A stretch of 64,000 bases of DNA. Origin: Pseudomonadota bacterium. Lineage in GTDB: Bacteria; Pseudomonadota; Gammaproteobacteria; Steroidobacterales; Steroidobacteraceae. The notes under the pieces were generated by a model, which was not told where the DNA came from, ran no database searches, and was given only the letters and a program-made list of their open reading frames with translations. The DNA is taken from contig JAFEDS010000009.1 in the NCBI GenBank assembly GCA_018241505.1, positions 590,564 through 654,563 of the forward strand. The letters are read 5' to 3'. Below are positions 25,640 to 64,000 of the stretch, in pieces (the first letter of the stretch is position 1; every line of letters begins with the position of its first letter). A program made the translations under genes and the position numbers.

Positions 25640-25834
25640 TTGGCGCTCTTGGCAAGAGGACTGTCCCTTGCACGCATTGACTCCCATACAGTGAACTTTG
25701 GCTTCCTCGGCGGATGCCGTACTGATCGCGCCGTGCCGAGCCAGTGCCGTGCAGTAGACCTCGCTGCGAGGCTGTTTTTGGCGCGTATACATGAACACCT
25801 CTGCCGACTGCCACGGATAGAACCCGCGGCTCAC
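25640..25834 (-). pseudogene. Truncated BufA2-type bufferin precursor
   Basis: The frame carries AEEAKVHCMGVNACKGQSSC, the start of the Cys-rich core of BufA2-type metallophore precursors (C-x-GVNACKG...). After that the family's next block appears only in the neighbouring frame (AKSANNS followed by a stop), so a one-base shift destroys the rest. No clean signal peptide is visible upstream in this frame. It begins at the end of the DoxX gene (about 4 bases overlap) and is followed by ATPase remnants. A complete relative of this domain is present at 60287-61057, fused to MerC. Confidence 0.5.
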
Positions 25835-28216: not shown

Positions 28217-28852
28217 CTAGTGACTGGACGCGTCATCCAACAACCGACGCGCGCACTCACAGCCGATGCTGAAGGCATCGTGGACTCCCACGACTTCGAC
28301 TCCCGGATGCTGCGACGACCAGCTGCGTGCTGCGATAGCGGAAGCGAAGAAGTGGACGTGGCAGCAAAACGCGCTCCGGATATCCGGGGTGTCTGGCGGG
28401 CGGACCAGCGATACTGCCGCACCCGCTGGCTCGACCGCTCGTGTCGCGGTGGGAGTGACGGTGAGCGACACGGGCGCGCCGGTGGCAACACAACGTGAGA
28501 CCACCCGGGCTGTGCGACCGATCAGCGCCGGGAAGAACAACGTGTCAAACGCGCACCAGGTGTACAGTCGGCGATCCTCGATCTCGAATCGATATGCGGT
28601 CTCACGCAACGTGAGTCCGTAGCCGATCACACAACCGTGGTCGTCCCACTCGGTGCCGATCGCCTGCTCGAGCGCCGCGTCCACGCGCGTGAGGGGCCAG
28701 TGAAGGGCCGCCGCAAGCGTCGCCGGCGAGACGGGGTTTCCTTTGGCGAGTTCGCGCAACAGCGCGACGAAGAGTTGCGCAAAGCCGTCGGACCGGCGAG
28801 CCCTCGTCAGCCGCTCAACGAGCTCCGTCGCATACCGAGCGGGGTCCGTCAT
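28217..28852 (-). CDS. merB: Organomercurial lyase MerB (copy 1)
   Basis: A 211-residue alkylmercury lyase that cleaves the C-Hg bond of organomercurials and passes Hg(II) to MerA. The catalytic set is present: C100 and D103 in [16 protein letters not shown] and C163 in [12 protein letters not shown], equivalent to C96, D99 and C159 of the classical enzyme. The N-terminal winged-helix-like part ([20 protein letters not shown]) is also typical. It begins 6 bases after merA stops, so it is the last gene of a merT-merP-merA-merB operon. A second, clearly distinct merB lies at 52124-52777. Confidence 0.9.
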
Positions 28853-28858
28853 TGGGTC

Positions 28859-30535
<1,677 letters not shown>

Positions 30536-30544
30536 TCAATCCGC

Positions 30545-30817
30545 CTACTGTTTGAGGCTGGACGGGTAGCCCGCGTCCCGGGTCGCCTGGGTCAGTTTCT
30601 GGGGGTTGGCTTTGGCATTATCGAAGGTCACGACCGCTTCGCGTTTCTCGAAGCTCACGTTCACTTGACTGACGCCCTCCACTTTGGAGAGGGCTGTCTT
30701 GACGGTGATGGGGCAGGCGGCGCAGGTCATTCCGGGCACCGATAGCGTGACTGTTTGGGGACTCGCCCAGGCGGGCGCCACACAAGCTGAGGCGACGGCG
30801 AAAAGAAGTCGTTTCAC
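30545..30817 (-). CDS. merP: Periplasmic mercury-binding protein MerP
   Basis: A 90-residue precursor with signal peptide MKRLLFAVASACVAPAWA and one heavy-metal domain, SVPGMTCAACPITVKTALSKV, with the Hg-binding CAAC pair. It binds Hg(II) in the periplasm and delivers it to MerT. The start is GTG at 30817 with GGGAG upstream. Between merT (13-base gap) and merA (9-base gap). Confidence 0.93.
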   Translation of the reverse strand: MKRLLFAVASACVAPAWASPQTVTLSVPGMTCAACPITVKTALSKVEGVSQVNVSFEKREAVVTFDNAKANPQKLTQATRDAGYPSSLKQ

Positions 30818-30830
30818 GATGAGCTCCCGA

Positions 30831-31181
30831 TCAATAGAAGAAAGGCAACACGTAGGGGAAAATCATCGCCACAAGGACCAGGGCGGCGACGACCCAGAAG
30901 ATCAGTTTGTAGGTGGTCCGAACCTGGGGAATCGCGCAAACCTCGCCCGGTCGGCAGGCCGATGCCGGCCGGAAGATTCGCCGCCCGGCAAAGAACAGCG
31001 CAGCCAGTGCCGCACCGATAAACACGGGGCGATAGGGCTCCAGAGTCGTCAGGTTGCCGATCCAGGCCCCGCTGAAGCCCAGAGCGACCAGGACCAGTGG
31101 CCCGAGGCAGCAGGTGGAGGCAAGAATCGCCGCGAGTCCGCCAGCGGCGAGCGTAGCTCGCGCAGTGTGTCGTTCCGCCAT
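30831..31181 (-). CDS. merT: Mercury transporter MerT
   Basis: A 116-residue inner-membrane protein with three helices. The first carries the vicinal cysteines STCCLGPLVLVALGFSGAW that receive Hg(II) from MerP. A cytoplasmic loop carries a second pair (ASACRPGEVCAI), and the third helix is LIFWVVAALVLVAMIFPYVLPF. First gene of the merTPAB operon, about 40 bases downstream of a MerR-type promoter. Unlike the classical arrangement, no merR lies divergently next to it; the nearest merR is at 52810-53214. Confidence 0.93.
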   Translation of the reverse strand: MAERHTARATLAAGGLAAILASTCCLGPLVLVALGFSGAWIGNLTTLEPYRPVFIGAALAALFFAGRRIFRPASACRPGEVCAIPQVRTTYKLIFWVVAALVLVAMIFPYVLPFFY

Positions 31182-31218: not shown

Positions 31219-31249
31219 ACGATACTTCCGTAGTCAAGTACGGAGTCAA
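31219..31249 (-). promoter_or_regulatory. MerR-controlled promoter of merTPAB
   Basis: Reading on the minus strand: -35 TTGACT (31249-31244), a 19-base spacer with the dyad CCGTA...TACGG, then -10 TATCGT (31224-31219). A long 19-base spacer with this dyad is the signature of MerR-regulated mer promoters. The same element occurs at 51988, 53216 and 60091. Confidence 0.85.
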
Positions 31250-32258: not shown

Positions 32259-33257
32259 CTACCCGAGTGACGGGATCCACTCCGCCAACGCGCGGCCATA
32301 GGCGTCCGGCGAAATCTCTTGAACGTAGTGGCTTCCGTAGAGGGTCACTTCCTTCTGATTGGGAAATGTCCGCACGAACTTAAGGAGCTCGGGGTTGGCG
32401 AGAATGGCACCGGGTAGTGCGTGCAGGAACAGCTTGGGTGTCGCTGCCGAGTGGGCGAGCCACGCCGAGTACTCATCGGCCATCTTGGCGTTGGTGGGAT
32501 TGTAAGCCGGCAACTCGCGCGGCCACTGCAATGTGGGCCAGCGATCGGCGCCGGGTTGGAGATAGGGTCGCCGATACTCGGCCTCGTCTGCCTCCGTCAA
32601 GTAGTATTTCAGCCCACCGATGAGGAGTTGTTCCACAAAGATGTTGTCATCCAGTACGAGGTGCTCCCCTTCGGAGGTCTGGAATCGATCGAACAACGTC
32701 GGGCCGGCGGCCGCAGGCGGCTGTGGGGGTGGACTGTTGGGCACCCTTACGATGGCTTCGGAATACGCAATCCCGCGCACCGCCGAAGGGTTGTGAGACG
32801 CGAAGTCGAATCCGAGTCCCGAACCCCAGTCGTGAATCACGAATACAACATCGCGATCAACTTTGAGCGTATTCAGTAATCCGAAGAGAAATTTCCGATG
32901 CGTGGCGTAGTTATAGACACCTGGACCGGGATTCGGCAACTTGGCCGAGTCTCCCATGCCAATGAGATCCGGGGCGATGCAGCGGCCCAGATGCTCGACA
33001 TGCGGCATGATGTTCCGCCAGAGATAAGAAGAGGTCGGATTACCGTGCAGGAAAACAATCGGCCGGCCTGAGCCCATTTCAACATAGGTCATTTTCTCAC
33101 CGTGCACGGTGACGTACCGTTTGATCTCTCGCCACGCCCGCTCCGACTGCGTGGGACTGGTCGCCGGCTTTCCTGTCACAGGTGATGCCGCCACCGCAAG
33201 TCCGGCACCGCCGGCCCCAGCCAGAAACCAGCGGCGATTCAGGGCGTCTGTATTCAT
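32259..33257 (-). CDS. Tat-exported haloalkane-dehalogenase-like alpha/beta hydrolase
   Basis: A 332-residue protein with a twin-arginine leader (NRRWFLAGAGGAGLAVAA, RR at 8-9), so probably periplasmic. The mature part fits haloalkane dehalogenases: oxyanion/halide segment LHGNPTSSYLWRNI with N73, nucleophile D143 in IHDWGSGLGFD with halide-binding W144, a candidate acid E167, and H310 in GSHYVQEISPD. The Gly-rich and WPRELP segments are also typical. The enzyme would hydrolyse a C-halogen bond, though epoxide or ester hydrolysis is not excluded. It overlaps the doxX gene of the bufferin operon by 4 bases, so it is co-transcribed with a copper-responsive type of system, an unusual pairing. 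Confidence 0.75.
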   Translation of the reverse strand: MNTDALNRRWFLAGAGGAGLAVAASPVTGKPATSPTQSERAWREIKRYVTVHGEKMTYVEMGSGRPIVFLHGNPTSSYLWRNIMPHVEHLGRCIAPDLIGMGDSAKLPNPGPGVYNYATHRKFLFGLLNTLKVDRDVVFVIHDWGSGLGFDFASHNPSAVRGIAYSEAIVRVPNSPPPQPPAAAGPTLFDRFQTSEGEHLVLDDNIFVEQLLIGGLKYYLTEADEAEYRRPYLQPGADRWPTLQWPRELPAYNPTNAKMADEYSAWLAHSAATPKLFLHALPGAILANPELLKFVRTFPNQKEVTLYGSHYVQEISPDAYGRALAEWIPSLG

Positions 33258-33799
33258 ACTTTCGGCGCCGTCGATGAGGCCGCGGGTCGTCGCCCCAGCA
33301 TCCGGGCAATCCAGAAGTCAACCGAGGCTCGCCCGGGCCCCAAGGCGATGATCGACACGGCGAGCGCGGCCCAGGGAAGGTGAAAGTTGGCCCATCCCTC
33401 CGGCACCGTCAGTTGAATCACTGCGGTCATGATCAGCAGCCCCAGCGCGCTCAATCGGGTGGCGAGCCCGATGAGGAGCAAACAAGGCAGTACGATTTCG
33501 GCTACGCTGTCGAGCAAGGCCAGCACGTCCGGAAACGGAAAGTCATAGGCGTGGCCAAAGAGATGGAGCTTGAACTGCTCTTCGAAGAGGAACTCCGCAG
33601 CGGGCGAGAGTTGGAAAAAGCCGCTCCACTTGGTGAGTCCGGAGCGTAGAAAGGGTATCGCGAGCGCCACGCGCGCCAGCGGCGCAGCGATGAGCAGGGC
33701 CATCCACCCGAGCTTCTCCAGGAAATATTGGCCTTTGGGCGCGAGGCGCCCGAGGAATCCATCGGCGTGTTGGACAGTTTCGCTTGACATCGAGTTCAA
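33254..33799 (-). CDS. DoxX-family protein of the bufferin operon
   Basis: A 181-residue membrane protein with four helices: LGWMALLIAAPLARVALAIPF, the family segment RSGLTKWSGFFQ, VAEIVLPCLLLIGLATRLSAL, and LPWAALAVSIIALGPGRASVDF. DoxX genes are frequent members of bufABCD-type operons (then called bufD), with a suggested but unproven link to the respiratory chain. It starts 3 bases after bufC ends and overlaps the downstream hydrolase by 4 bases, so the five genes from bufA1 form one operon. Compare the DoxX at 25831-26340, next to a decayed bufferin. Confidence 0.8.
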   Translation of the reverse strand: MNSMSSETVQHADGFLGRLAPKGQYFLEKLGWMALLIAAPLARVALAIPFLRSGLTKWSGFFQLSPAAEFLFEEQFKLHLFGHAYDFPFPDVLALLDSVAEIVLPCLLLIGLATRLSALGLLIMTAVIQLTVPEGWANFHLPWAALAVSIIALGPGRASVDFWIARMLGRRPAASSTAPKV

Positions 33800-33802
33800 C
33801 TC

Positions 33803-34576
33803 TTACGGTGATCGCACGACACCCACGATCAGACCGCTCTCGAGGAGGGCGATCAAGTGGGAAGACAGATCGAAAGTGGCATCCCTGCTCAGGGCCGCTT
33901 GGCTCGCTTCGATGAGGGTTTCCCCGCGGGCGAGGGCATCCAACAGCGGCGCCGCGCCCGGTGGCATCTGCCGGACCTCGACGTCGGCCTCGGGGCGCAG
34001 GATCAGAACATCCTCACCGCCGGCGTCGAGGTCGACGGGTGCCGGCACGCCATTGGCGATGTTCATGCGCCAGATGGTGAGCGCCGGGTACGGCGAACGG
34101 ATGATGCGCATGGAGGGATGCACCTTCAGTCGAATCTCCCCGGCGCGCTGCGCCACCACGCCGCCTAACTCGTCCAGGTCTAAGGAGGCGACATCCGGCG
34201 CGTGGTACGCTTCGAGCCACCCGCGCTCGATGCGCGCGACGTCGAACAAGTACGGGAGCGACGCCAGAGGTTCGAAATCCCTCAAGAACTGCGGAAAGGT
34301 CGCGCCGTACTCCAGCATGATCGGCGAGCACGGGGGGTGTTGGGCGGCATAGAATCGCGCGAGGGCTGTAAAACAATCCTCCCCGACGAGTCGCGCGACC
34401 GCGACATAACTGTCGCGCAACGCCTCAATCAGGCTCACCATGACGTTGTTCCGATAGACCCCAAATCGCTGCTCGTCCGGTACCTGATGCGGACCCACAC
34501 AGCCCTCGGGCACGGCCCGGCGCGGGTCCAGCAGGGCTTCGGCAAACTCGCGCTGGCGCTCAGCGAGCGTTGGCAC
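33803..34576 (-). CDS. bufC: Bufferin maturation partner BufC (HvfC/BufC family, DUF2063)
   Basis: A 257-residue protein. The N-terminal half is the DUF2063/HvfC domain: LAERQREFAEALL, then FGVYRNNVMVSLIEALRDSYVAVARLVGEDCFTALARFY (quoted in part: FGVYRNNVMVSLIEAL, VGEDCF) and PCSPIMLEYGATFPQFL. The C-terminal half is a winged beta-rich domain. BufC pairs with the iron enzyme BufB and is thought to present the precursor peptide's leader. It overlaps bufB by 17 bases. Despite the DNA-binding name in databases, the known role is as a scaffold in RiPP maturation. Confidence 0.85.
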   Translation of the reverse strand: MPTLAERQREFAEALLDPRRAVPEGCVGPHQVPDEQRFGVYRNNVMVSLIEALRDSYVAVARLVGEDCFTALARFYAAQHPPCSPIMLEYGATFPQFLRDFEPLASLPYLFDVARIERGWLEAYHAPDVASLDLDELGGVVAQRAGEIRLKVHPSMRIIRSPYPALTIWRMNIANGVPAPVDLDAGGEDVLILRPEADVEVRQMPPGAAPLLDALARGETLIEASQAALSRDATFDLSSHLIALLESGLIVGVVRSP

Positions 34577-35471
34577 GGCGCAGCTCCTCGTGTTGATGCG
34601 CTGGGGCGCCAGCCAGAATGGCCTGCGCGCGCTGCGCTTCGCTCTCGAGCTGTGTCCACGCCGGAATGTGGTTGTCCCACTCGATCAGCGTGGGCCGAGG
34701 ACCGGTCAGCTCGATCGCCAGGGCGAAGAGTTGCCAGACCGGCTCCGCCACCGGGCAATCGTGGGAGTCGATCAGCAATGGTCGGCCGGCCCCATCCGTT
34801 CGCGAGGCATGCCCTGCCAGGTGGATCTCGCGGACGCGTGAAACGGGGAAGTCGCGCAGGTACTGCTGAGGGTCCCACCCATGATTGGTGCAACTGACGT
34901 GCACGTTGTTCACATCCAGGAGGAGGGCGCATCCCGTACACCGCGCGACCTCCGCAATGAACTCCACTTCCGAGTACGTCGTGTCGGCGAACCGGACGTA
35001 CGTGGAGGGGTTCTCGAGCGCCATTTGACGACCGAGCACGTCCTGCACATGGTCAACGTGATCGATCACGATGCGCAGGCTCTCATCTGTATACGGCAGC
35101 GGGAGCAAATCGTTCAGAAACGATGCCCCCTGTGAGGACCACGCCAGATGCTCGGAAAACAACATCGGCTCGTAGCGCCGGATCAACTCTTTCAGGCGCC
35201 GCAGATGATCCCGATCCAGGGGCCGGTCCGCGCCGAGCGACAGACCCACGCCGTGGAGTGACAAAGGGTATCGCTCGCGGATGGCTGTGAGATAGCGGTG
35301 CGGCGGTCCGCCCGCTCCCATGTAGTTTTCGGCGTGAACCTCGAAGAAGCCCAACGCCGGCCGCGACTCCAGAATCTCGCGGTAATGCACGGGCTTCAAG
35401 CCAACACCGGCGGACGCCAGGGGCGCGCCGCGCGCATCGTTCAGACTCGAGGGGGTGCGAGCCTTCATCAT
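34560..35471 (-). CDS. bufB: MNIO-family bufferin-modifying enzyme BufB (DUF692)
   Basis: A 303-residue TIM-barrel enzyme of the multinuclear non-heme iron oxidase family. Motifs: GVGLKPVHYREIL, FFEVHAENYMG, SLHGVGLSLG, FSEHLAW, ENPSTYVRF, LLLDVNNVHVSC, EIHLAGHA and LIDSHDCPV. The His, Glu, Asp and Asn residues in these motifs form the metal-binding centre. MNIOs modify cysteines of small precursors, in bufferins to thiooxazole-type groups that bind copper. The start is ATG 35471, 85 bases after the bufA1 stop, and the end overlaps bufC by 17 bases. It could also act on the MerC-fused bufferin domain at 60287-61057, which has no own MNIO nearby. Confidence 0.9.
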   Translation of the reverse strand: MMKARTPSSLNDARGAPLASAGVGLKPVHYREILESRPALGFFEVHAENYMGAGGPPHRYLTAIRERYPLSLHGVGLSLGADRPLDRDHLRRLKELIRRYEPMLFSEHLAWSSQGASFLNDLLPLPYTDESLRIVIDHVDHVQDVLGRQMALENPSTYVRFADTTYSEVEFIAEVARCTGCALLLDVNNVHVSCTNHGWDPQQYLRDFPVSRVREIHLAGHASRTDGAGRPLLIDSHDCPVAEPVWQLFALAIELTGPRPTLIEWDNHIPAWTQLESEAQRAQAILAGAPAHQHEELRRANAR

Positions 35472-35556
35472 TCTCTCATTGCCATTCCAACATTTTCAGC
35501 GGACCGAACCTGCAGCTCCACAGGCTCGGTCCCGCCTCGAAAGCGCCGAAGAGGCT

Positions 35557-35910
35557 TCAGGTCGATTTCGGCTTCAGGCTTCCCGTACCGTTCGGGGTCT
35601 GAATGGTGGTACAGGTTCCTTTGGCGACGAGCTTGAAAGCGTTGCCCTGATAGTCCGACGTGCTCGTGCCTGCGCAAGTGGTGCCGGCACCGGCGTAGCA
35701 GTCGTTCTGACCCTTCAGAGCGACTCCATAGCACTGCTCGAACTTACCGCTCTTCATTGCCTTCATCGTCTTTGCTTGGTTCTCCTTCATCATTTTCATC
35801 TGCTGCTCGCTCATCTGCATGCCCTGGGCAGAGCTCAGGACGGGGGTCAACGTCCCCAGGACAGCGGCTAGAGCTCCGGCCACGACTGCGGATACGGCTC
35901 GATTCGACAT
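35557..35910 (-). CDS. bufA1: BufA1-type bufferin precursor (DUF2282), periplasmic metallophore
   Basis: A 117-residue precursor with signal peptide [20 protein letters not shown], a methionine-rich segment (residues ~31-52) and the four-cysteine DUF2282 core: C60, C71, C79 and C100 in [20 protein letters not shown] and [19 protein letters not shown]...GTC. BufB is expected to modify these cysteines, giving a copper-binding peptide exported to the periplasm. It is the first gene of the operon, with GGAGG six bases before the ATG. The methionine-rich stretch before the core is notable and could add Cu(I) affinity. Confidence 0.9.
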
Positions 35911-49872: not shown

Positions 49873-50586
49873 ATGAGCTTACGTCCGGCTGTGATCGCAT
49901 TTGATGTGATGGAGACCCTGTTCTCGCTCGAGAAATTGCGCATCCGATTGGCAGCGGTCGGGCTGCCGGCCGACGCTCTGGAAGTCTGGTTCCCACAGAT
50001 GCTGCGCGATGCGTTCGCGCTAGAAGTCTCGGGCGTATTCCATTCATTTCGCGAGGTCGCTTCCTCCACCCTTACGGGCATCGCGCTGGCACGAGGCCGT
50101 CAGGTAGGTCCCGACCCCATTTCCGGTGTCCTCGACGGCTTTGCAGAGCTTGAACCACATCCGGACGTTGGAATCGCCTTTCAGCGCTTAAAAGATGCCA
50201 ACATCCGAATCGTTACCCTCACCAACGGAAGCGCCGAGGTCACCGGCAAGCTGGTGCGTCGGGCGGGCCTCGAGCATTTGGTGGAGCGACACATTTCGAT
50301 CGATGAGGTGCGGCACTGGAAGCCGGGGCGCGAAGTGTATCTGCACGCCGCCCGGTGTACTGGTGTGGAGCCGCGGCAGCTCGCGCTCGTGGCCGCTCAT
50401 GCCTGGGATGTGCATGGCGCCGCTTGCGCGGGCCTTACAACCGCATTCATCGCCCGCGGCAAGTCCTACCCCAACATCATGATGCCACCTGGGATCACGG
50501 CTGCGACGCTCGCCGAAGCCGCGGAAGCTCTCGCACAGTTGCCCGAACACGCAGAACTGAGGGGGCCGCATGGCGAAGCACTATGA
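49873..50586 (+). CDS. Haloacid-dehalogenase type II-like hydrolase
   Basis: A 237-residue HAD-fold enzyme. Motif I is AFDVMETLFS with nucleophile D11, motif II TLTNGS, motif III lysine in HWKPGREVYLHAA, and motif IV VAAHAWDVHGAACAG. The last two match L-2-haloacid dehalogenases (KP.....Y and W-D-x-x-GA), so release of halide from 2-haloacids is possible. Position 3 after the nucleophile is Glu (DVME) where a Tyr-Gly or Ala-Tyr is common, so specificity is uncertain. ATG 49873 preferred over 49807. Overlaps the next gene by 17 bases. Confidence 0.75.
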   Translation: MSLRPAVIAFDVMETLFSLEKLRIRLAAVGLPADALEVWFPQMLRDAFALEVSGVFHSFREVASSTLTGIALARGRQVGPDPISGVLDGFAELEPHPDVGIAFQRLKDANIRIVTLTNGSAEVTGKLVRRAGLEHLVERHISIDEVRHWKPGREVYLHAARCTGVEPRQLALVAAHAWDVHGAACAGLTTAFIARGKSYPNIMMPPGITAATLAEAAEALAQLPEHAELRGPHGEAL

Positions 50587-51922
50587 CCTCATCGTGATCG
50601 GGACCGGTACGGCGGCGTCCGTGGCTGCGTTTGCGTGCCGTCGCGCCGGATGGCAAGTGGCGATGGTCGATCACCTGCCTTTCGGAGGGACCTGCGCGTT
50701 GCGCGGCTGCGACCCCAAGAAGGTGTTGGTTGGAGTGGCAGAAGCGCTCGATCAGAGCCGGAGGTTGCGCGGCAAAGGTCTTGCCGGTGGGTTGCCGGCG
50801 CTCGATTGGCGCGAGCTCATGACCTTCAAGCGTAGCTTCACGGATCCGATTCCACCGCGACGTGAGAAAGACTTTCACCACCACGGCATCGAGACCTTTC
50901 ATGCGAGGGCCCGATTTCGCGGCCCGCAAACGATTGAGGCTGGGGGCGAACTCCTGGAAGCACGCTTCATCCTCATTGCGGCTGGAGCGGTACCCGCGCC
51001 TTTGAAAATTCAAGGCGAAGAGCATCTCGTAACCAACTCGGATTTTCTCGAGCTCGACGAGTTGCCGCAGCGGCTGGTACTCGTTGGCGGTGGCTACATC
51101 GCCGCAGAATTCTCGCACGTAGCAGTGCGGGCCGGAGCTCAAGTGACCATCCTCCATCGTGGGGACCGGCTTCTCAAGCAATTTGATCCAGACCTGGTGC
51201 AGTGGTTGACCGAGAAGTCCCGAGGACTCGGAATCGATATCCGATTGCACGCATCCGTACAGTCGATCGAAAAGGTCGCCAAGGGATTGCGCATCCATTT
51301 CGATTCGGACGGAACCGCATTGAGCGTGGAGGCCGATCTCGCCGTGCACGCCGCGGGACGAGTGCCGGACCTCGATTCGCTCGACCTCCATGCTGGCGGG
51401 ATCGCTCGGGAAGGAGCGTATTTGAAGCTCAATGAGTTTCTGCAGAGCACGTCCAATCCGGCCGTGTATGCGGCGGGAGATGCCGCTGAGAGAGGTCCGC
51501 CGCTCACACCCGTGGCCAGCCATGACGGCCGTGTGGCCGCACGGAATATGCTCGAGGGCAATCGCGAAGTGCCAAACTACTTGGGCGTTCCGAGCGTCGT
51601 GTTCACGATTCCGGCGTTGGCGAGAGTCGGTCTGCCGGAGGACGAGGCGCGCCGCCAGAATCTTCACTTTCGCCTCAAAATGGAGAATACGGCGAGTTGG
51701 TACACGGCGCGACGTGTGGCCGAAGACTGCGCTGGTTACAAGGTGTTGGTCGAAGAAGGGACTGAACGCATTCTCGGTGCACATCTGATCGGGCCACAAG
51801 CGGAAGAGGTGATCAACTTCTTCGCACTCGCGATTCGCAACGGATTGCCCGCGTCGAAGATCACCGGCGTCTTCGGTTATCCAACCGCGGCGTCAGATAT
51901 CGGCTATATGGTCAGGCAATAA
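50570..51922 (+). CDS. Flavin-dependent disulfide reductase-like protein (MerA/glutathione-reductase family)
   Basis: A 450-residue class I pyridine nucleotide-disulfide oxidoreductase. It has the FAD motif LIVIGTGTAASVAA, the redox pair C42/C47 in GGTCALRGCDPKKVL, the NAD(P) motif LVLVGGGYIAAEF and the FAD-contact AVYAAGDAAERG. There is no N-terminal metal domain and no C-terminal vicinal cysteine pair, so it is not a classical MerA. The C-terminal catalytic HPT motif reads YPTAASD, with Tyr in place of the active-site His. Substrate unknown. Overlaps the HAD gene by 17 bases. Confidence 0.8.
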   Translation: MAKHYDLIVIGTGTAASVAAFACRRAGWQVAMVDHLPFGGTCALRGCDPKKVLVGVAEALDQSRRLRGKGLAGGLPALDWRELMTFKRSFTDPIPPRREKDFHHHGIETFHARARFRGPQTIEAGGELLEARFILIAAGAVPAPLKIQGEEHLVTNSDFLELDELPQRLVLVGGGYIAAEFSHVAVRAGAQVTILHRGDRLLKQFDPDLVQWLTEKSRGLGIDIRLHASVQSIEKVAKGLRIHFDSDGTALSVEADLAVHAAGRVPDLDSLDLHAGGIAREGAYLKLNEFLQSTSNPAVYAAGDAAERGPPLTPVASHDGRVAARNMLEGNREVPNYLGVPSVVFTIPALARVGLPEDEARRQNLHFRLKMENTASWYTARRVAEDCAGYKVLVEEGTERILGAHLIGPQAEEVINFFALAIRNGLPASKITGVFGYPTAASDIGYMVRQ

Positions 51923-51987: not shown

Positions 51988-52018
51988 TTGACTCCGTAGT
52001 CGGCTACAGAAGTAATTT
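51988..52018 (+). promoter_or_regulatory. MerR-controlled promoter of merB copy 2
   Basis: TTGACT (51988-51993), 19-base spacer containing CCGTAGTCGGCTACAG (one arm imperfect), then TAATTT (52013-52018), about 105 bases before merB at 52124. Same layout as the other three mer promoters of the window. Confidence 0.8.
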
Positions 52019-52123: not shown

Positions 52124-52777
52124 ATGGAGTTGGCACGATATACGGAAGACTTGGTCCAGCGCCTTACAATGGTCAGCGGATCCGACGGGTTTGCCGAGCT
52201 ATATGTGGCGCTGCTGCGTGAGCTTGTGAAGGGAAATCCTGTAACGCCAGCTGCGTTGGCACGGGCTGTCGACTGGCCTGTTGACAGGGTAACGACCAGG
52301 CTCAAACAAGCCGCAAGCACCGAGTGGGACGATGAGGGAAACGTCGTCGGCTACGGCTTGACCCTGCGAGAGACACGCCATCGTTTGGAGGTGGACGGCC
52401 GACGCTTATATACGTGGTGCGCGTTTGACACGCTCTTCTTTCCGGCCCTGATCGATCGGACGGCTCGGGTGGTTTCTCGTTGTGCTGCTACGGGAGTGGC
52501 GATCCACTTGACGGTTGCGCCAAATGCAGTGTTGGACATTATGCCCATGGAGACTTCCTTGTCACTGCTGCTCCCTGAACCCACGGCAGACGTCCGTGCT
52601 GCCTTCTGTCGCCACGTACATTTCTTCGCTTCCCGCGCTGTGGGTCAGGAGTGGGCGTCGACTCACACTGGAGTCGACATCGTCAGTCTCCAGGATGCCT
52701 TTGAGATAGGTCGCGTTCGCGCAGAAAGGCTGTTGCAACTCGCCGGCGAGAGGGTCGCCCCGTCTGCGCGGCAGTGA
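52124..52777 (+). CDS. merB: Organomercurial lyase MerB (copy 2)
   Basis: A 217-residue alkylmercury lyase. The catalytic residues C99 and D102 are in [16 protein letters not shown] and C162 is in AAFCRHVHFFAS. It has a strong GGAGGAGGAG ribosome binding site. It differs widely from copy 1 (28217) outside the core, so it is not a recent local duplicate. It has its own mer promoter and is next to merR on the opposite strand, convergent with it. Confidence 0.9.
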   Translation: MELARYTEDLVQRLTMVSGSDGFAELYVALLRELVKGNPVTPAALARAVDWPVDRVTTRLKQAASTEWDDEGNVVGYGLTLRETRHRLEVDGRRLYTWCAFDTLFFPALIDRTARVVSRCAATGVAIHLTVAPNAVLDIMPMETSLSLLLPEPTADVRAAFCRHVHFFASRAVGQEWASTHTGVDIVSLQDAFEIGRVRAERLLQLAGERVAPSARQ

Positions 52778-52809: not shown

Positions 52810-53214
52810 CTACTCGGTGGAATTCTCCAACGCTGAGATCAGCGGGCAGCGCAGTTTGCCCCGGTTGCTACGGCACTTTCCGACCAGCACCTTGAGGGCG
52901 GTTTCGATGTTCTTGAGCTGTACCAGCCGCTCGCGCACGTCAGCTAGCTTGTGACCAGCGATCTCCTCGACCTCGTGGCAATGCAGGCCATCCTCGAGCG
53001 ACAGCAACTCACCCACTTCTTCCAGGCTGAACCCGAGTCCTTGTGAACGCTTGATGAAGCGCAGCCGTCGGGCGTGCTCCTGGTCGTAGTGTCGGATACC
53101 GCTTGGCGGTTTCATCGGTTCGGGTACGAGCCCGCGCCGCTGGTAATAGCGGATCGTCTCCACATGGACCCCCGTTTCACGAGCCAGGGTACCGATTGTG
53201 TATCGCGCGGCCAT
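52810..53214 (-). CDS. merR: Mercury-responsive regulator MerR
   Basis: A 134-residue MerR with the N-terminal winged helix (YTIGTLARETGVHVETIRYYQRRGL, quoted in part) and the three Hg-binding cysteines of classical MerR: C79 in LEDGLHCHEV, C114 and C123 in GKCRSNRGKLRCPLI (C82, C117, C126 in Tn501 numbering). It represses and, with Hg(II), activates promoters with a 19-base spacer. A mer promoter begins 2 bases upstream of its start and reads away from it, the usual divergent layout, but the structural genes expected there are missing. It is the only classical merR in the window and should control the elements at 31219, 51988, 53216 and 60091. Confidence 0.93.
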   Translation of the reverse strand: MAARYTIGTLARETGVHVETIRYYQRRGLVPEPMKPPSGIRHYDQEHARRLRFIKRSQGLGFSLEEVGELLSLEDGLHCHEVEEIAGHKLADVRERLVQLKNIETALKVLVGKCRSNRGKLRCPLISALENSTE

Positions 53215-53215
53215 A

Positions 53216-53246
53216 TTGACTCCGTAGCTGACTACGGTCGTAAGGT
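53216..53246 (+). promoter_or_regulatory. Orphan mer promoter divergent from merR
   Basis: TTGACT (53216-53221), 19-base spacer with CCGTAG...CTACGG dyad, then TAAGGT (53241-53246), the same -10 as the best-known transposon mer promoters. No plus-strand gene follows before minus-strand genes begin at 53382, so the promoter has lost its operon; it may still serve autoregulation of merR. Confidence 0.8.
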
Positions 53247-57492: not shown

Positions 57493-59970
57493 ATGCCAGC
57501 GGCTTTACGCACTCGTTGCACTCCCGGCGCCTCTGGCGCGTGTCGTGCCGTTTTGGCTGCCCCACGAGCTGCCGCGCTGCGGACTGCGGTCGCAGCCCTC
57601 GGGGTCGCTCTTCTCTTCAATGGCTCGGTGACGGCGGCTGATAGCGGGACCCACGGCGGCGAGTTCACGAACCGTCTCGTGAACTCGGCCGATCCCTATC
57701 TCCTGCTGCACGCCCACAATCCCGTCGACTGGTATCCGTGGGGGGCCGAGGCACTCGAGCGCGCCAGGCGTGAGGACAAACCCATTTTCCTATCGGTCGG
57801 ATATAGCACCTGTTTCTGGTGCCACGTGGCGGAACGCACGATCTACTCCAACCCGGCGATAGCGAAACTGATGAACGACTGGTTCATCAACATCAAGGTT
57901 GATCGCGAGGAGCGACCGGACATTGATCAGGTATACATGCTGGCCACGGAAGTCCTGACAGGGCAGGGCGGATGGCCCAACAACGTGTTTCTGACACCCG
58001 ATCTGCAGCCGTTCTATGCCGGCAGCTACTTCGCGCCCACGGACGACCCGGCCGCCGGTCCCGGCTTTCCCACCGTGCTGCGCGCCATGCACGAGGCTTG
58101 GACAGCCAAGCGCTCGCAGGTGCTCGAGCGCGCCGCAAGTGTCGGGAAGTCGATGCGTCAGGCGCAATCCGCAATGACCGAATCCTCTTCGGTGCCGGTG
58201 AGCCCGGCGGACTGGGCGAACGCCGCGAGCGCATCGCTGCTGTCGCAGTTTGATGAGACTCACGCGGGGTTTGGAACTCGCGGGCCGAAGTTTCCCAGAG
58301 CGCCCGAGTTGGAGCTGCTGCTCGCGCAGGCTCGGATCCATCACGACGCGCATGCCCAGCATGCGGCTCTCCAGACGCTAGATGCCATCTTCTACGGTGG
58401 CATTCACGACCACCTGGCCGGAGGGTTTCATCGCTACAGCACCGAGCCGACCTGGTCGATTCCTCACTTCGAGAAAATGCTCTATGACAACGCGCAACTG
58501 CTCCGCCTATATGCTGAAGTGTTTGAGTTGACGGGCAATCCGCTCTATCGGTATGCAACGCAGGAGACTGCGCACTACCTGCTTGACCAGATGAGCACGC
58601 CGGCGGCGGCCGGATTCTTCACCGCGCAGGATTCCCAAGTCGACGGGGTTGAGGGTTCAAGCTACGTGTGGACCCGTGAGGAGATTGTGCACTGGCTCGG
58701 CGACGACCGTGCCCGGCGCTTCTTCAAAGTCTACGAGCTGACTCCAATACCGCGACAGGCGCCTCTGGGGCTGCAGCAGCCGGATTCGCAGTCTAGAGGA
58801 CAGCCGGGTGTCCTTCGGATCCGTCTCCCAATCGAAAGGACGGTGAAAGAGGCCGGTTTCCAGACCGCCGTGGCAATGATCGAAAGTCTCGCGTCAGACC
58901 GGGCAGCGCTGCTGGCCGCGCGCGAGCGCCGTCCCCAGCCTGCGCGGGATGAAAAGATCCTGACAGGCCTGAATGGTCTTGCGATTAGCGCCTTTACGGT
59001 GGCCGGTCGAGTGCTTCATGATCCGTCTTATATCCAGCACGCACAGGATCTCGCCGACCGAGTCTGGAAGGTGGCCTACGATCCTAAGACCAACGTAGTC
59101 CAACACGAGAGTTTTCGAGGCGCTGCGCACACGGACGGATTTCTGCCGGACTATGCCGAGCTGGGCCAGGCGTTCATGGCGTTGGCGGTCGCAACGGGCG
59201 ATACACGCTGGAGGGAGCGGGCCACGCTGCTCGCTGATGCCATCGTTGCTCGGTTCGAACGCAAGGACGGCTCATTCGCACTGAGCGTCCAGCAGCGAGA
59301 GCTGCTCATCCCGCCGACAGAGGACGGCGATGGTGACACACCTTCAGGTACCTCCGGCGCAATCGATTTGCTTCTGCAACTCGCCTCAACAACCCAAGCC
59401 GACCCTCGGTTCGCCTCCGGTGCGTCGCGCGCAGTGAATCGGATGAGCGGCGTCTATCAGCAAAGTCCTGCCGCCTGGGGCGCCGCGCTGGTCAGCCTCA
59501 ATCTCCATCCCGCGCCAGGGACCAAGACAGTGCAGACGTCGCCTCCCGCGCCAAGCAATGAGCGCAGCCGCTTCGCCCCACCCGTGACGGCCGATCATCT
59601 CCATATATCGGCAAGCGCAAACAGCAGCGCCGCGGAGGATCAGATTGTTGTGACCGTCGCGGTCGATCCGGGCTATCACATCAATGCGAACCCCGCTTCC
59701 TTCGACTACTTGATCCCGACTTCTGTGCAGTTCTCACACCTCAGTCCCATACGCGTGAAGTACCCCGATGCGACCCGCTTCAAAGCCGAGTTCGCCCCGG
59801 CGGGACTCAACGTCTATGAGGGGGCCGTGCAGCTGCGTGCGATATTTCCGTCCCACACCCTGAGCAGCTCGGACGCTGTCCAGGGAATCGTTACGGCTCA
59901 GGCCTGCGATCTCAAAGTGTGCCTGCCGCCCTCCAAGATCGCTTTCTTGGTGAAAGCGGTCGGGCCGTGA
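57493..59970 (+). CDS. DUF255 thioredoxin-like protein fused to a DsbD alpha domain
   Basis: An 825-residue exported protein. An N-terminal segment ending [17 protein letters not shown] looks like a signal peptide. The DUF255 (YyaL/SSP411-like) part starts [24 protein letters not shown] and has the redox motif [20 protein letters not shown], with [37 protein letters not shown] (quoted in part) and the long six-hairpin domain. The last ~130 residues (from about 690) are a DsbD N-terminal (alpha) domain with [13 protein letters not shown] and [15 protein letters not shown], where the two cysteines are separated by four residues. A DsbD-like electron path feeding a DUF255 protein is unusual. Start ATG 57493 has AGAAGAGG close by. 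Confidence 0.8.
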
Positions 59971-60090: not shown

Positions 60091-60121
60091 TTGACTCCGT
60101 AGTCGACTACGGCCGTACCGT
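60091..60121 (+). promoter_or_regulatory. MerR-controlled promoter of the MerC-bufferin gene
   Basis: TTGACT (60091-60096), 19-base spacer with the perfect dyad CCGTAGTCGACTACGG, then TACCGT (60116-60121), ~165 bases before the start at 60287. Of the four mer elements this has the most perfect dyad. Confidence 0.85.
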
Positions 60122-60286: not shown

Positions 60287-61057
60287 ATGAAAGCGCTCCT
60301 CAGGCAATTTGCATCGTTGATCGGCGCCGGTATCGCAGCAGCGTGCTGCCTGGGTGTATCGGCGGTTCTGTCCGCTGTGGGAGCTGTCGGCCTTGGGTTT
60401 CTGGTGCACGATGCATATCTATTCCCGCTGTTCGTCGCCTTCGTCGGTGTCAGTGTTTGGATTCTGTATCGCTCCACGGCCAAACGACAGCGTTTGGGAC
60501 CGTTCTGGTTGGGCCTTGCTGGCGGTGGTATCGCGGCCGCGAGCCTGTGGCTGCTCGTAACTGGAATCTACCCGATTGTGTGGAGTCTTTATGCCGGTCT
60601 CGGTGCGCTGATCGCAGGGAGTGTCTGGGATTTTGTGAATGCAGTGAATGCGCGCCGATCGGCAGCGTGCCCCGCCACCGAATCCGTCAAAGCACGTGCG
60701 CCAGTGTTAGCTAAGGCATCGATCGAGGACCCAAAAGCGCTTGATTCAAGATCGGCGGCGGACAACGCGCGGGTTCGCCTCGCCAAAGGCGCAGCATTAG
60801 CTGCGGCGGCGGCCGGCGTGTTCTACGGCCTGTACAAGTCGGTGGATCGATTTGGACAGAAAGCGGAAGCCGGCGCGATCGCCTGCTACGGTATCAATAC
60901 TTGCCGAGGACGATCGGCTTGCTCGACGGCGCAGAACGCGTGCACCGGTCAGAATGCCTGCAAGGGTCGGGGCTGGGTGAATGCGACGCCCCAACAATGC
61001 GCTGCGCAGGGTGGCGTACCGCTTGCGGGCTCACCGGCCGATCCGGACCGAGGTTGA
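60287..61057 (+). CDS. MerC-like mercury transporter fused to a BufA2-type bufferin domain
   Basis: A 256-residue membrane protein. Residues 1-120 carry four helices of the MerC type: a vicinal pair C20-C21 in IAAACCLGVSAVLSAVGAVG, then VFLVAFVGVSVWIL-like, GLAGGGIAAASLWLLVTG and YAGLGALIAGSVWDFVNAV. After a linker (121-166) a fifth hydrophobic segment (KGAALAAAAAGVFYGLYKSV) is followed by a six-cysteine core: C200, C206, C212, C219, C225, C238 in ACYGINTCRGRSACSTAQNA and CTGQNACKGRGW. That core matches BufA2-type bufferin precursors. Four helices plus one puts the core in the periplasm. It has GGAGA six bases before ATG 60287 and a mer promoter upstream. It may act as a tethered periplasmic mercury trap feeding MerC. 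No MNIO gene is adjacent. Confidence 0.7.
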   Translation: MKALLRQFASLIGAGIAAACCLGVSAVLSAVGAVGLGFLVHDAYLFPLFVAFVGVSVWILYRSTAKRQRLGPFWLGLAGGGIAAASLWLLVTGIYPIVWSLYAGLGALIAGSVWDFVNAVNARRSAACPATESVKARAPVLAKASIEDPKALDSRSAADNARVRLAKGAALAAAAAGVFYGLYKSVDRFGQKAEAGAIACYGINTCRGRSACSTAQNACTGQNACKGRGWVNATPQQCAAQGGVPLAGSPADPDRG

Positions 61058-61146: not shown

Positions 61147-61845
61147 TCAGGCGGCCAACTCGGGGATCCAGAAGAGGACCGCATTCAACATATAGAAGCC
61201 CATCCCGATCAGGGTGAGGCCGCCGAGGATCTCAAACGCGCGCCGAAAAGGGGCGAGCGCCTCGAGGTTTTCCAGCCACCCGACCGCAAACGCCCCGAGG
61301 GCCATCGGCACCGCGCGCCCAAGCGCGAAAGCAAACAGCAGCACGACGCCGAGCGCAGCCGAACCGAGGCCGGCCGCCACACCCAGTAACACGACGAGCG
61401 CCGGTGTACACACCGGACACACCGCGACTGCGAATGGTATGCCGAGCAGGAAGGCGCCCCAGGCGACGCTTGGACGCCTGGCCCGGAATCCGAATGCCGG
61501 CAGTGGAATCCGCAGCCATCCTGCCCACACGAGCCCGAGCACGATCAGCAGCGGACCCAAGAACAGCCCCCAACTTCTTCCAGTGACCTCGGCGGCCCAC
61601 TGGCCGCCCAACCCAGCGATGAGTCCGAGCAGGACATGCGTGAGGATCATGCTGAGAATAAACAGCGCGCCGAAGGTCAAAGCCTGGCGCTTGTCCCGTC
61701 CTTTCGTCACGTACGCGAGCGAGACCGGAATGGAGGCCAGCGCCACGGGATTGAAGCTGAACAGAAGACCGGCGAGGAATGCAACACCGGCGGCCGCCAG
61801 GCCTGCGTGTTCGACGGCTTGACGCAGAGCTTGCGCATCCATCAT
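61147..61845 (-). CDS. CcdA-like membrane protein of a metal operon
   Basis: A 232-residue polytopic protein resembling cytochrome-c-biogenesis/DsbD transmembrane regions: GVAFLAGLLFSFNPVALASIPVSLAYVTKG (quoted in part), ALFILSMILTHVLLGLIAGLG, and PFAVAVCPVCTPALVVLLGVA. The usual first redox cysteine (SPCVLPxxP) is replaced by FNPVALASIP, so only the CPVC motif remains. Similar proteins accompany mercury and heavy-metal loci. It starts ATG 61845 overlapping the upstream thioredoxin-like stop by 4 bases. Perhaps a metal transporter rather than an electron carrier. Confidence 0.7.
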   Translation of the reverse strand: MMDAQALRQAVEHAGLAAAGVAFLAGLLFSFNPVALASIPVSLAYVTKGRDKRQALTFGALFILSMILTHVLLGLIAGLGGQWAAEVTGRSWGLFLGPLLIVLGLVWAGWLRIPLPAFGFRARRPSVAWGAFLLGIPFAVAVCPVCTPALVVLLGVAAGLGSAALGVVLLFAFALGRAVPMALGAFAVGWLENLEALAPFRRAFEILGGLTLIGMGFYMLNAVLFWIPELAA

Positions 61846-62102
61846 CCAGTCCCAGTTTGCCGCTGTTTCAGGGCCTCGTGCAGCTGCGGTACTGTTGGCA
61901 TGGAGGTAAACACCAACTCTCCGTCGATCACGATCGCAGGCAGAGTGAGCACGCCGAGCTCGACTGCGTGATCGAGATTCTCGAGCACGTTGAGCTCTCG
62001 CCACTCGAGATCTTCCACGAGCGCCTCCGCGCTGAGGCGAAGCTGTTCGCGCGCCTCGGTACACGCAGAGCAGCCCGGCGTGTAGAACATCTCGACTTTC
62101 AC
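61842..62102 (-). CDS. Small thioredoxin/glutaredoxin-like protein
   Basis: An 86-residue thioredoxin-fold protein with an early Cxx[20 protein letters not shown] (C11, C14), the strand [18 protein letters not shown], and the cis-proline loop [14 protein letters not shown]. No signal peptide, so cytoplasmic. It could reduce or carry metal for the CcdA-like partner. It overlaps both neighbours by 4 bases, so the three genes are one transcript with the MerR-like regulator first. Confidence 0.8.
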
Positions 62103-62542
62103 GACTTCACGCTGCCCATTCGCTCACTGGCCGCACGCGGAGAAATGGACTGCTCCAGCGCCGCAATAATGGTGCACTCCTTCACCGGACGGGCTTCGTT
62201 CGCACATTCGGCGATCAGATGATCCAGCGCCGCCGACATGGCCCTCATGGCGCGAATCTTGTTTTCGATCTGCAGTTTCTTCTCGATGGCTCGCGTGCGA
62301 ACGTCGCCGCAACATGCTTCATCGCGCGTGCGCAACAGCAGCAGCTCGCGTATCTCGGCCAGGGTGAAGCCGCAGTCTTGGGCATGCTTGATGAAGCGGA
62401 TGCGCCGGAGGGCCTCCGGCTCATACAGCCGGAAGCCGGCCGGGCTTTTGGCTGTCGGTTGAACCAGCCCTTCGCGCTCGTAGTAGCGTAGCGTGTCGCG
62501 ACTGACGCCGGTCGAGGAAGCCAATTTGCCGATGGTGAACAT
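62099..62542 (-). CDS. MerR-family metal regulator
   Basis: A 147-residue regulator with the MerR DNA-binding start ([21 protein letters not shown]), a dimerisation helix and cysteines C77, C78, C113 and C123. A Cys near 78, 113 and 123 is the pattern of MerR/PbrR-type sensors for Hg, Pb or Cd, differing from CueR. The ion is not certain. It is the first gene of an operon with a thioredoxin-like and a CcdA-like gene, and its own promoter region carries a matching dyad (62570-62591). It is distinct from the classical merR at 52810. Confidence 0.85.
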
Positions 62543-62562
62543 AGGGGCCCTCTCCGGACCGT

Positions 62563-62594
62563 ATTGTGGACCCTGGAGCTTGCTCCAGGGTCAA
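62563..62594 (-). promoter_or_regulatory. MerR-family operator/promoter of the regulator-thioredoxin-CcdA operon
   Basis: On the minus strand: -35 TTGACC (62594-62589), then a 20-base spacer covered by the dyad ACCCTGGAGC / GCTCCAGGGT (62570-62591), and -10 CACAAT (62568-62563). The ACCCTGGAGC arm is typical of CueR/PbrR/CadR-type promoters, and the long spacer is diagnostic of the MerR family. It indicates autoregulation. Confidence 0.8.
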
Positions 62595-62630
62595 GTCCGT
62601 TGCGGGACCGAAGGGGCAATGCGAGTGGGC

Positions 62631-64000
<1,370 letters not shown>

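Follow-up and report, generated by a model that had tools for sequence, protein, structure and literature searches.

What does a protein do that begins as a MerC-like transporter and ends in the six-cysteine core of a bufferin, and for which metal? One gene in the window (the whole stretch of DNA analysed, 64,000 nucleotides) raises this question. We followed it through the domains of the fusion, the mer operators and mer genes around it, its relatives in other genomes, and the MNIO enzymes that could act on its core.

A MerC-like protein carries a BufA2-type core

The fusion gene and its two domains are as follows.

60287..61057 (+), MerC-BufA2 fusion gene, 256 aa, ATG at 60287 and stop at 61057, from Pfam and NCBIfam profiles and aligned relatives
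60317..60634 (+), MerC domain with the vicinal Cys pair C20-C21, aa 11-116, PF03203 29.6 bits (cut-off 27.6)
60788..61015 (+), BufA2 match made up of a signal-peptide-like helix and the six-Cys core, aa 168-243, NF050166 77.9 bits (cut-off 60)

A GGAG lies 7 nt 5' of the ATG at 60287, and the start methionine is the same in five aligned relatives. The preliminary description had seen a MerC-like part joined to a six-Cys BufA2-type core, and both profile matches, each over its cut-off, bear this out; the domain search that it had named beforehand as a check returned a significant BufA2 match at the C-terminus (77.9 against 60 bits). Against the NCBI MerC equivalogs NF010318 and NF033784, the fusion scores 27.7 and 20.6 bits, far below the cut-offs of 170 and 140, so the match is at the level of the Pfam family and "MerC-like" is the right term. 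The BufA2 match covers positions 1-76 of the 79 in the NF050166 profile, signal-peptide part included. Because it begins at profile position 1, the fifth helix of the fusion appears to be the bufferin's former signal peptide. C20-C21 and the core cysteines at 200, 206, 212, 219, 225 and 238 are invariant across all 18 aligned six-Cys fusions, our own included. A linker cysteine at 125-130 is likewise present in 18 of 18, and half of them (9/18) have a second cysteine after it.

Hydrophobicity is weak in the fifth helix, which resembles a signal-peptide h-region. A Kyte-Doolittle scan finds three segments in this fusion, missing helix 4 and the fifth helix, and calls the fifth helix in just one of the 18 fusions (L097). 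The AlphaFold2 model of this protein, built with 18 sequences, contains confident helices at 45-127 and a helix of modest confidence at 155-189 (block means 58-73); the core is of low confidence (block means 30-59), and the model is uninformative on it. The fifth helix proposed earlier is less certain than that description had it: AlphaFold2 backs it at modest confidence, and hydropathy does not call it in this protein. Five membrane segments and a periplasmic core, also proposed, agree with the prediction for MerC chimaeras given in the part of PMC12452194 available to us, although hydropathy finds three segments here. Tethering of the core to the membrane is likewise predicted in that part of the paper.

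The fusion has its own mer operator among scattered mer genes

Four mer operators and six mer genes lie in the window.

60091..60112 (+), mer operator TTGACTCCGTAGTCGACTACGG of the fusion, 0 mismatches, 174 nt before the ATG
31228..31249 (-), mer operator before merT, 0 mismatches
30831..31181 (-), merT, 202.4 bits (cut-off 150)
30545..30817 (-), merP, TIGR02052 137.6 bits (cut-off 92.55)
28859..30535 (-), merA, TIGR02053 592.5 bits (cut-off 454.45)
28217..28852 (-), merB, 275.2 bits (cut-off 193)
51988..52009 (+), mer operator before the second merB, 1 mismatch
52124..52777 (+), second merB, 258.3 bits (cut-off 193)
53216..53237 (+), mer operator abutting merR, 0 mismatches
52810..53214 (-), merR, TIGR02051 157.6 bits (cut-off 150.85)

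The promoter at 60091 reads TTGACT, a 19-bp spacer and then TACCGT, a -10 element read by eye that matches TATAAT at three of six positions. The dyad CCGTA-N6-TACGG, set between -35 and -10 with the 19-bp spacer, is present before the fusion, and the MerR-type operator noticed ahead of the gene holds at 0 mismatches (60091-60112). Shuffled versions of the window contain 0.22 sites on average at two mismatches or fewer, the threshold at which the window has four, and none of 100 shuffles reaches four; the reversed window has none. In the whole 7.9-Mb genome at one mismatch or fewer, six sites occur against three for the backward pattern, and four of the six fall within the window. A lone site elsewhere in the genome would be of little weight, but much weight attaches to four that share 64 kb with mer genes. 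One site outside the window (L143) precedes MerT-like (110.3 of 150 bits) and MerP-like (87.5 of 92.55 bits) ORFs, both under the NCBI cut-offs, and the other (L142) has a MerR-type ORF nearby, recognised by eye.

Each of the four operators stands before or at mer genes or the fusion, so the mer genes of the region form scattered units with one operator apiece. merTPAB, the second merB and merR all lie within 32 kb of the fusion, which is not in one operon with them. With its own mer operator and mer genes within 32 kb, the fusion belongs to a mercury-detoxification gene cluster. Downstream of the operator at 53216-53237, no gene on its strand is evident in the next kilobase; this operator perhaps serves merR autoregulation or is left from a lost operon.

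Several other neighbours deserve mention. Just upstream of the fusion, 57493-59970 (+) encodes a large protein with a DUF255/DsbH-type thioredoxin domain and a C-terminal DsbD_N. Converging on the fusion, 61147-63998 (-) holds genes for a DsbD-type membrane protein, a small thioredoxin-like protein, a MerR-family regulator (nearest to ZntR, under the cut-off) and a heavy-metal P-type ATPase. A BufA2-like remnant at 25646-25726 (-) covers 27 profile positions at 34.1 bits (cut-off 60) and is apparently a decayed bufferin gene.

Full-length relatives are few

Our class search covered 369 genomes, our own included, and our phylum search 398, with at most seven candidates per genome scored in each. 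Among these candidates, a full-length fusion was found in five other genomes of the class, at 54-59% identity in the alignment, and in the phylum search in its own genome only. None of the 57 other genomes of the genus has it, which makes the fusion rare near home. Four loci of the same genus in which both halves were spanned with an internal stop (L032, L034, L035 and L036) were rejected as stand-alone CAAC-type MerCs that no core follows. Phage sequences gave no match to the fusion, and the 14 matching plasmid records match the core only, none covering 80% of the query.

The named genome collection yielded no relative when scanned with the fusion protein alone. Scanned with the alignment, it gave 30 loci, drawn with two short peptide patterns and hence not a census: 17 with a six-Cys core, six with a four-Cys core and seven without a full core (L114, L117-L122). 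Among the four-Cys loci, L109 is frayed at its end and Pfam assignments apply to L113 and L116 only. Five of the 17 six-Cys loci (L099, L101, L102, L106 and L108) are the same contigs as genomes in the class search, and in three (L100, L103 and L107) the locus starts inside the gene run, cut before the run's start. Neighbouring genes were identified by tblastn, with proteins of the window and of the relatives as references, and only some of these assignments were profile-checked.

In two class genomes, G422 and G407, a methyltransferase is placed before the MerC-Buf2 fusion. An ArsM-like methyltransferase, MerC and a Buf2 part share one frame there (L072:3565-4997 in G422, L073:8399-9814 in G407); the G422 contig ends within the core, and the G407 core is degenerate. 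Pfam MerC is not reached at E 0.01 in the L073 protein, and none such was found in the three other genomes of G422's order. A 65-aa ORF at L122:10001-10198 runs from the beginning of MerC straight into the last part of the Buf2 core, as though what lay between had been lost.

Relatives of the fusion lie in mer operons

merA lies within 1.5 kb of 13 of the 17 six-Cys fusions and of one of 43 free Buf2 loci, while an MNIO lies within the same distance of 6 of the 17 and 27 of the 43. In 12 of the 17 six-Cys loci, the gene run opens with a mer operator of at most two mismatches; in L095 and L099, inspection by eye shows just a shorter version of the dyad. Distinct operator sites number 18 in the 17 loci (reversed control, 1) and 37 over all 30 (reversed, 2). 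We dropped a raw total of 43 against 2 reversed for the 30 loci because some dyads had been counted on both strands. The locus most like the window, L104, has a MerR-type gene (150.3 bits, cut-off 150.85), an operator and then the fusion directly; no merA was found in its 20.7 kb.

MerT and MerP are retained in most fusion operons, at least nine, so the fusion does not just replace them. Four loci (L096, L097, L108 and L111) have merA and the fusion, with neither MerT nor MerP detected at E 1e-4. The merA genes of L097 and L111 score over the MerA cut-off; both loci are short contigs, so their MerT and MerP could lie elsewhere. Taken together, the relatives in mer operons make a better case for mercury than does the window by itself. 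Mercury regulation, put forward as the likely reading in the preliminary description, is supported by the operator and by these relatives, and a mercury role of the fusion is likely.

Two further genes recur near fusions. One has its counterpart in the window:

50570..51922 (+), pyridine nucleotide-disulphide oxidoreductase, PF07992 178.8 bits, under every NCBIfam cut-off shown

Its relatives lie near the fusion in 9 of the 30 loci of other genomes; counts for it from the 1.5-kb comparison were dropped owing to cross-matching to MerA. The second, a membrane protein without a Pfam or NCBIfam match (L071:10307-10834, minus strand), is encoded between merA and the fusion, after a redoxin, in several mer operons and has relatives in L093, L101, L102 and L103.

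The window MNIO belongs to a Buf1 cluster

The MNIO of the window, suggested earlier as the modifier of the fusion's six cysteines, sits beside a precursor of its own.

34560..35471 (-), MNIO (BufB) of a Buf1 cluster, NF050167 392.3 bits (cut-off 310), placed by tree
35557..35910 (-), Buf1/DUF2282 precursor of the window MNIO, PF10048 81.4 bits (cut-off 22.4)

The cluster as a whole (33254-35910, minus strand) comprises the DUF2282 precursor, the MNIO, a DUF2063-like partner that matched no NCBIfam model at 1e-8, and a protein resembling HvfX/DoxX at 51.2 bits, below the cut-off of 80.

In a tree of 23 MNIOs, with four duplicate rows left out, the seven mer-linked enzymes form one clade, that is, one side of a branch (97/94). 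These mer-linked rows all come from loci picked because they have the fusion, and inheritance of the whole operon may thus account for part of the grouping. Four Buf1-linked MNIOs group at 100/100 and seven Buf2-linked ones less surely, at 59/80. The window MNIO falls in the Buf1-linked clade, apart from the Buf2-linked and mer-linked enzymes. With this placement and a DUF2282/Buf1 precursor of its own, it is unlikely to be the maturase of the fusion and appears to have been the wrong candidate.

Its own genome encodes three MNIOs, in the window and on contigs C21 and C25. By motif, the precursor beside the C21 enzyme is Buf1-type and that beside the C25 enzyme Buf2-type; since the window MNIO is in the Buf1 group, the Buf2-type MNIO on C25 is the better candidate. 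We found no mer-type MNIO in this genome. Among the relatives, an MNIO is present in 7 of the 17 six-Cys loci (L095, L096, L100, L101, L102, L103 and L108). The bufferin arrangement of an MNIO and a DUF2063 partner beside the precursor gene occurs in 7 of the 17 relatives and is absent beside the fusion. All eight genomes with the fusion have an MNIO, and none was found in G339, which has MerC alone; this co-occurrence is weak evidence because 222 of the 369 class genomes have one.

A mercury capture-and-import model and its alternatives

We favour, with some confidence, a reading in which MerR controls the fusion gene within a mercury-resistance regulon, and the fusion acts as a membrane-bound mercury capture-and-import protein. 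Both domains over their cut-offs, the four operators, and the relatives with merA or an operator were counted for it. MerR with Hg(II) would activate the promoter at 60091. The periplasm-facing six-Cys core would take up Hg(II), as MerP does, and hand the metal to the Cys pair of MerC helix 1; the cytoplasmic linker cysteine C128 could then relay it to MerA. The accepted MerP-to-MerT route serves as the model for this hand-over, as set out in the part of PMC5715351 at hand. In relatives, the MNIO of the mer operon may modify the core before export, Cys-derived thiooxazoles being what would be expected of a bufferin; in this genome, modification of the core, if any, would occur in trans, most probably by the Buf2-type MNIO on contig C25.

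A bolder extension, which we put forward tentatively, is that mer operons have a bufferin chemistry of their own, in which a dedicated MNIO clade modifies the six-Cys domain of the importer, giving it an inbuilt metal trap of post-translational origin that, in the smallest operons, replaces MerP. Here the module would have come apart, leaving the fusion matured in trans or unmodified. If so, MNIO chemistry known from copper bufferins would serve another metal. A mercury-regulated, transporter-fixed form with its own MNIO clade would make the question of which metals bufferins handle directly testable, and the small operons of L097 and L111, with merA and the fusion alone, are ready test cases.

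Other assignments of the two halves are conceivable. The core could be a periplasmic sink that holds Hg(II), perhaps Cu, away from other proteins, with the MerC part mainly an anchor or an unrelated importer. Published bufferins sequester copper in the periplasm, according to the part of PMC12452194 available, and in at least nine operons import is already provided for by MerT and MerP. An anchor, however, would not need the MerC Cys pair and the linker cysteine, which are kept in 18 of 18 fusions, and four loci are without another detected transporter; we therefore consider the sink unlikely. More doubtful is a cleaved internal signal peptide before the core, by which one chain would yield a MerC transporter and a free bufferin. 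The BufA2 profile match does begin in the signal-peptide part, and the helix, besides being short, has little hydrophobicity; in 16 of 18 fusions, a permissive site of the A-x-A type precedes the first core cysteine. Yet the position of this site is not fixed, L096 and L097 lack it, alanine-rich stretches yield such sites easily, and PMC12452194, in the part available, treats the bufferin domain as membrane-borne.

The metal itself could be another. Bufferins studied so far bind copper, as the same part of PMC12452194 reports, and the MerC match is loose, so the fusion might serve copper or another soft metal and merely be carried along in mer loci. Against this stand the mer operators and merA found with the fusion in most complete loci, and the operator that the window gene has for itself, and we regard such a role as very improbable.

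Comparison with known systems

Among literature on mercury together with bufferins, MNIO, DUF692 or DUF2282, one pertinent paper was found, PMC12452194 (Antoine et al. 2025). In the part available, chimaeras of MerC with either Buf1 or Buf2 are reported from mercury gene clusters; they have five predicted membrane segments, and their bufferin domain is placed in the periplasm. The preliminary description had presented a membrane-tethered, mercury-regulated form as an extension of the bufferin class; such chimaeras in mercury clusters were thus already published. That part of the text contains no mention of the operators, a mer-linked MNIO clade, operons without MerT or MerP, or methyltransferase-MerC-Buf2 proteins. 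The fusion is genuine and well supported as one more case of a published kind; its mercury reading is much strengthened and its maturase reading corrected.

Judged by their published description in the same part, the MerC|Buf2 chimaeras (for example OOO01496.1) resemble the fusion in having MerC followed by a six-Cys Buf2 and a place in mercury clusters; the five segments and periplasmic core predicted for them may hold for the fusion as well. The window fusion differs in being a single gene with a mer operator to itself; the nearest MNIO, a Buf1-type enzyme, is about 25 kb away. The MerC|Buf1 chimaeras (for example WP_200808486.1) share the MerC scaffold as described there but have a four-Cys DUF2282 core where the fusion has six-Cys Buf2. 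In our set, L113 (Aminobacter ciceronei) and L116 (Tistlia consotensis) combine MerC with DUF2282 by Pfam. These alphaproteobacterial fusions indicate that two bufferin families have been joined to one MerC scaffold. L110, L112 and L115, alphaproteobacterial as well, also have a DUF2282 (Buf1) core on the MerC scaffold, by motif.

Free BufA2 (Buf2) bufferins, of which two copies over the cut-off lie elsewhere in the fusion's own genome, share the six-Cys core and the signal-peptide part with it. Unlike the fusions, free Buf2 genes are mostly beside an MNIO and rarely beside merA. Tn21 MerC has a spaced Cys pair, and same-genus stand-alone MerCs have CAAC in place of the vicinal CC. The fusion and Tn21-type MerC share the Pfam MerC domain, and each has cysteines both in helix 1 and in its cytoplasmic tail, but the fusion has the vicinal CC, an extra helix and the core.
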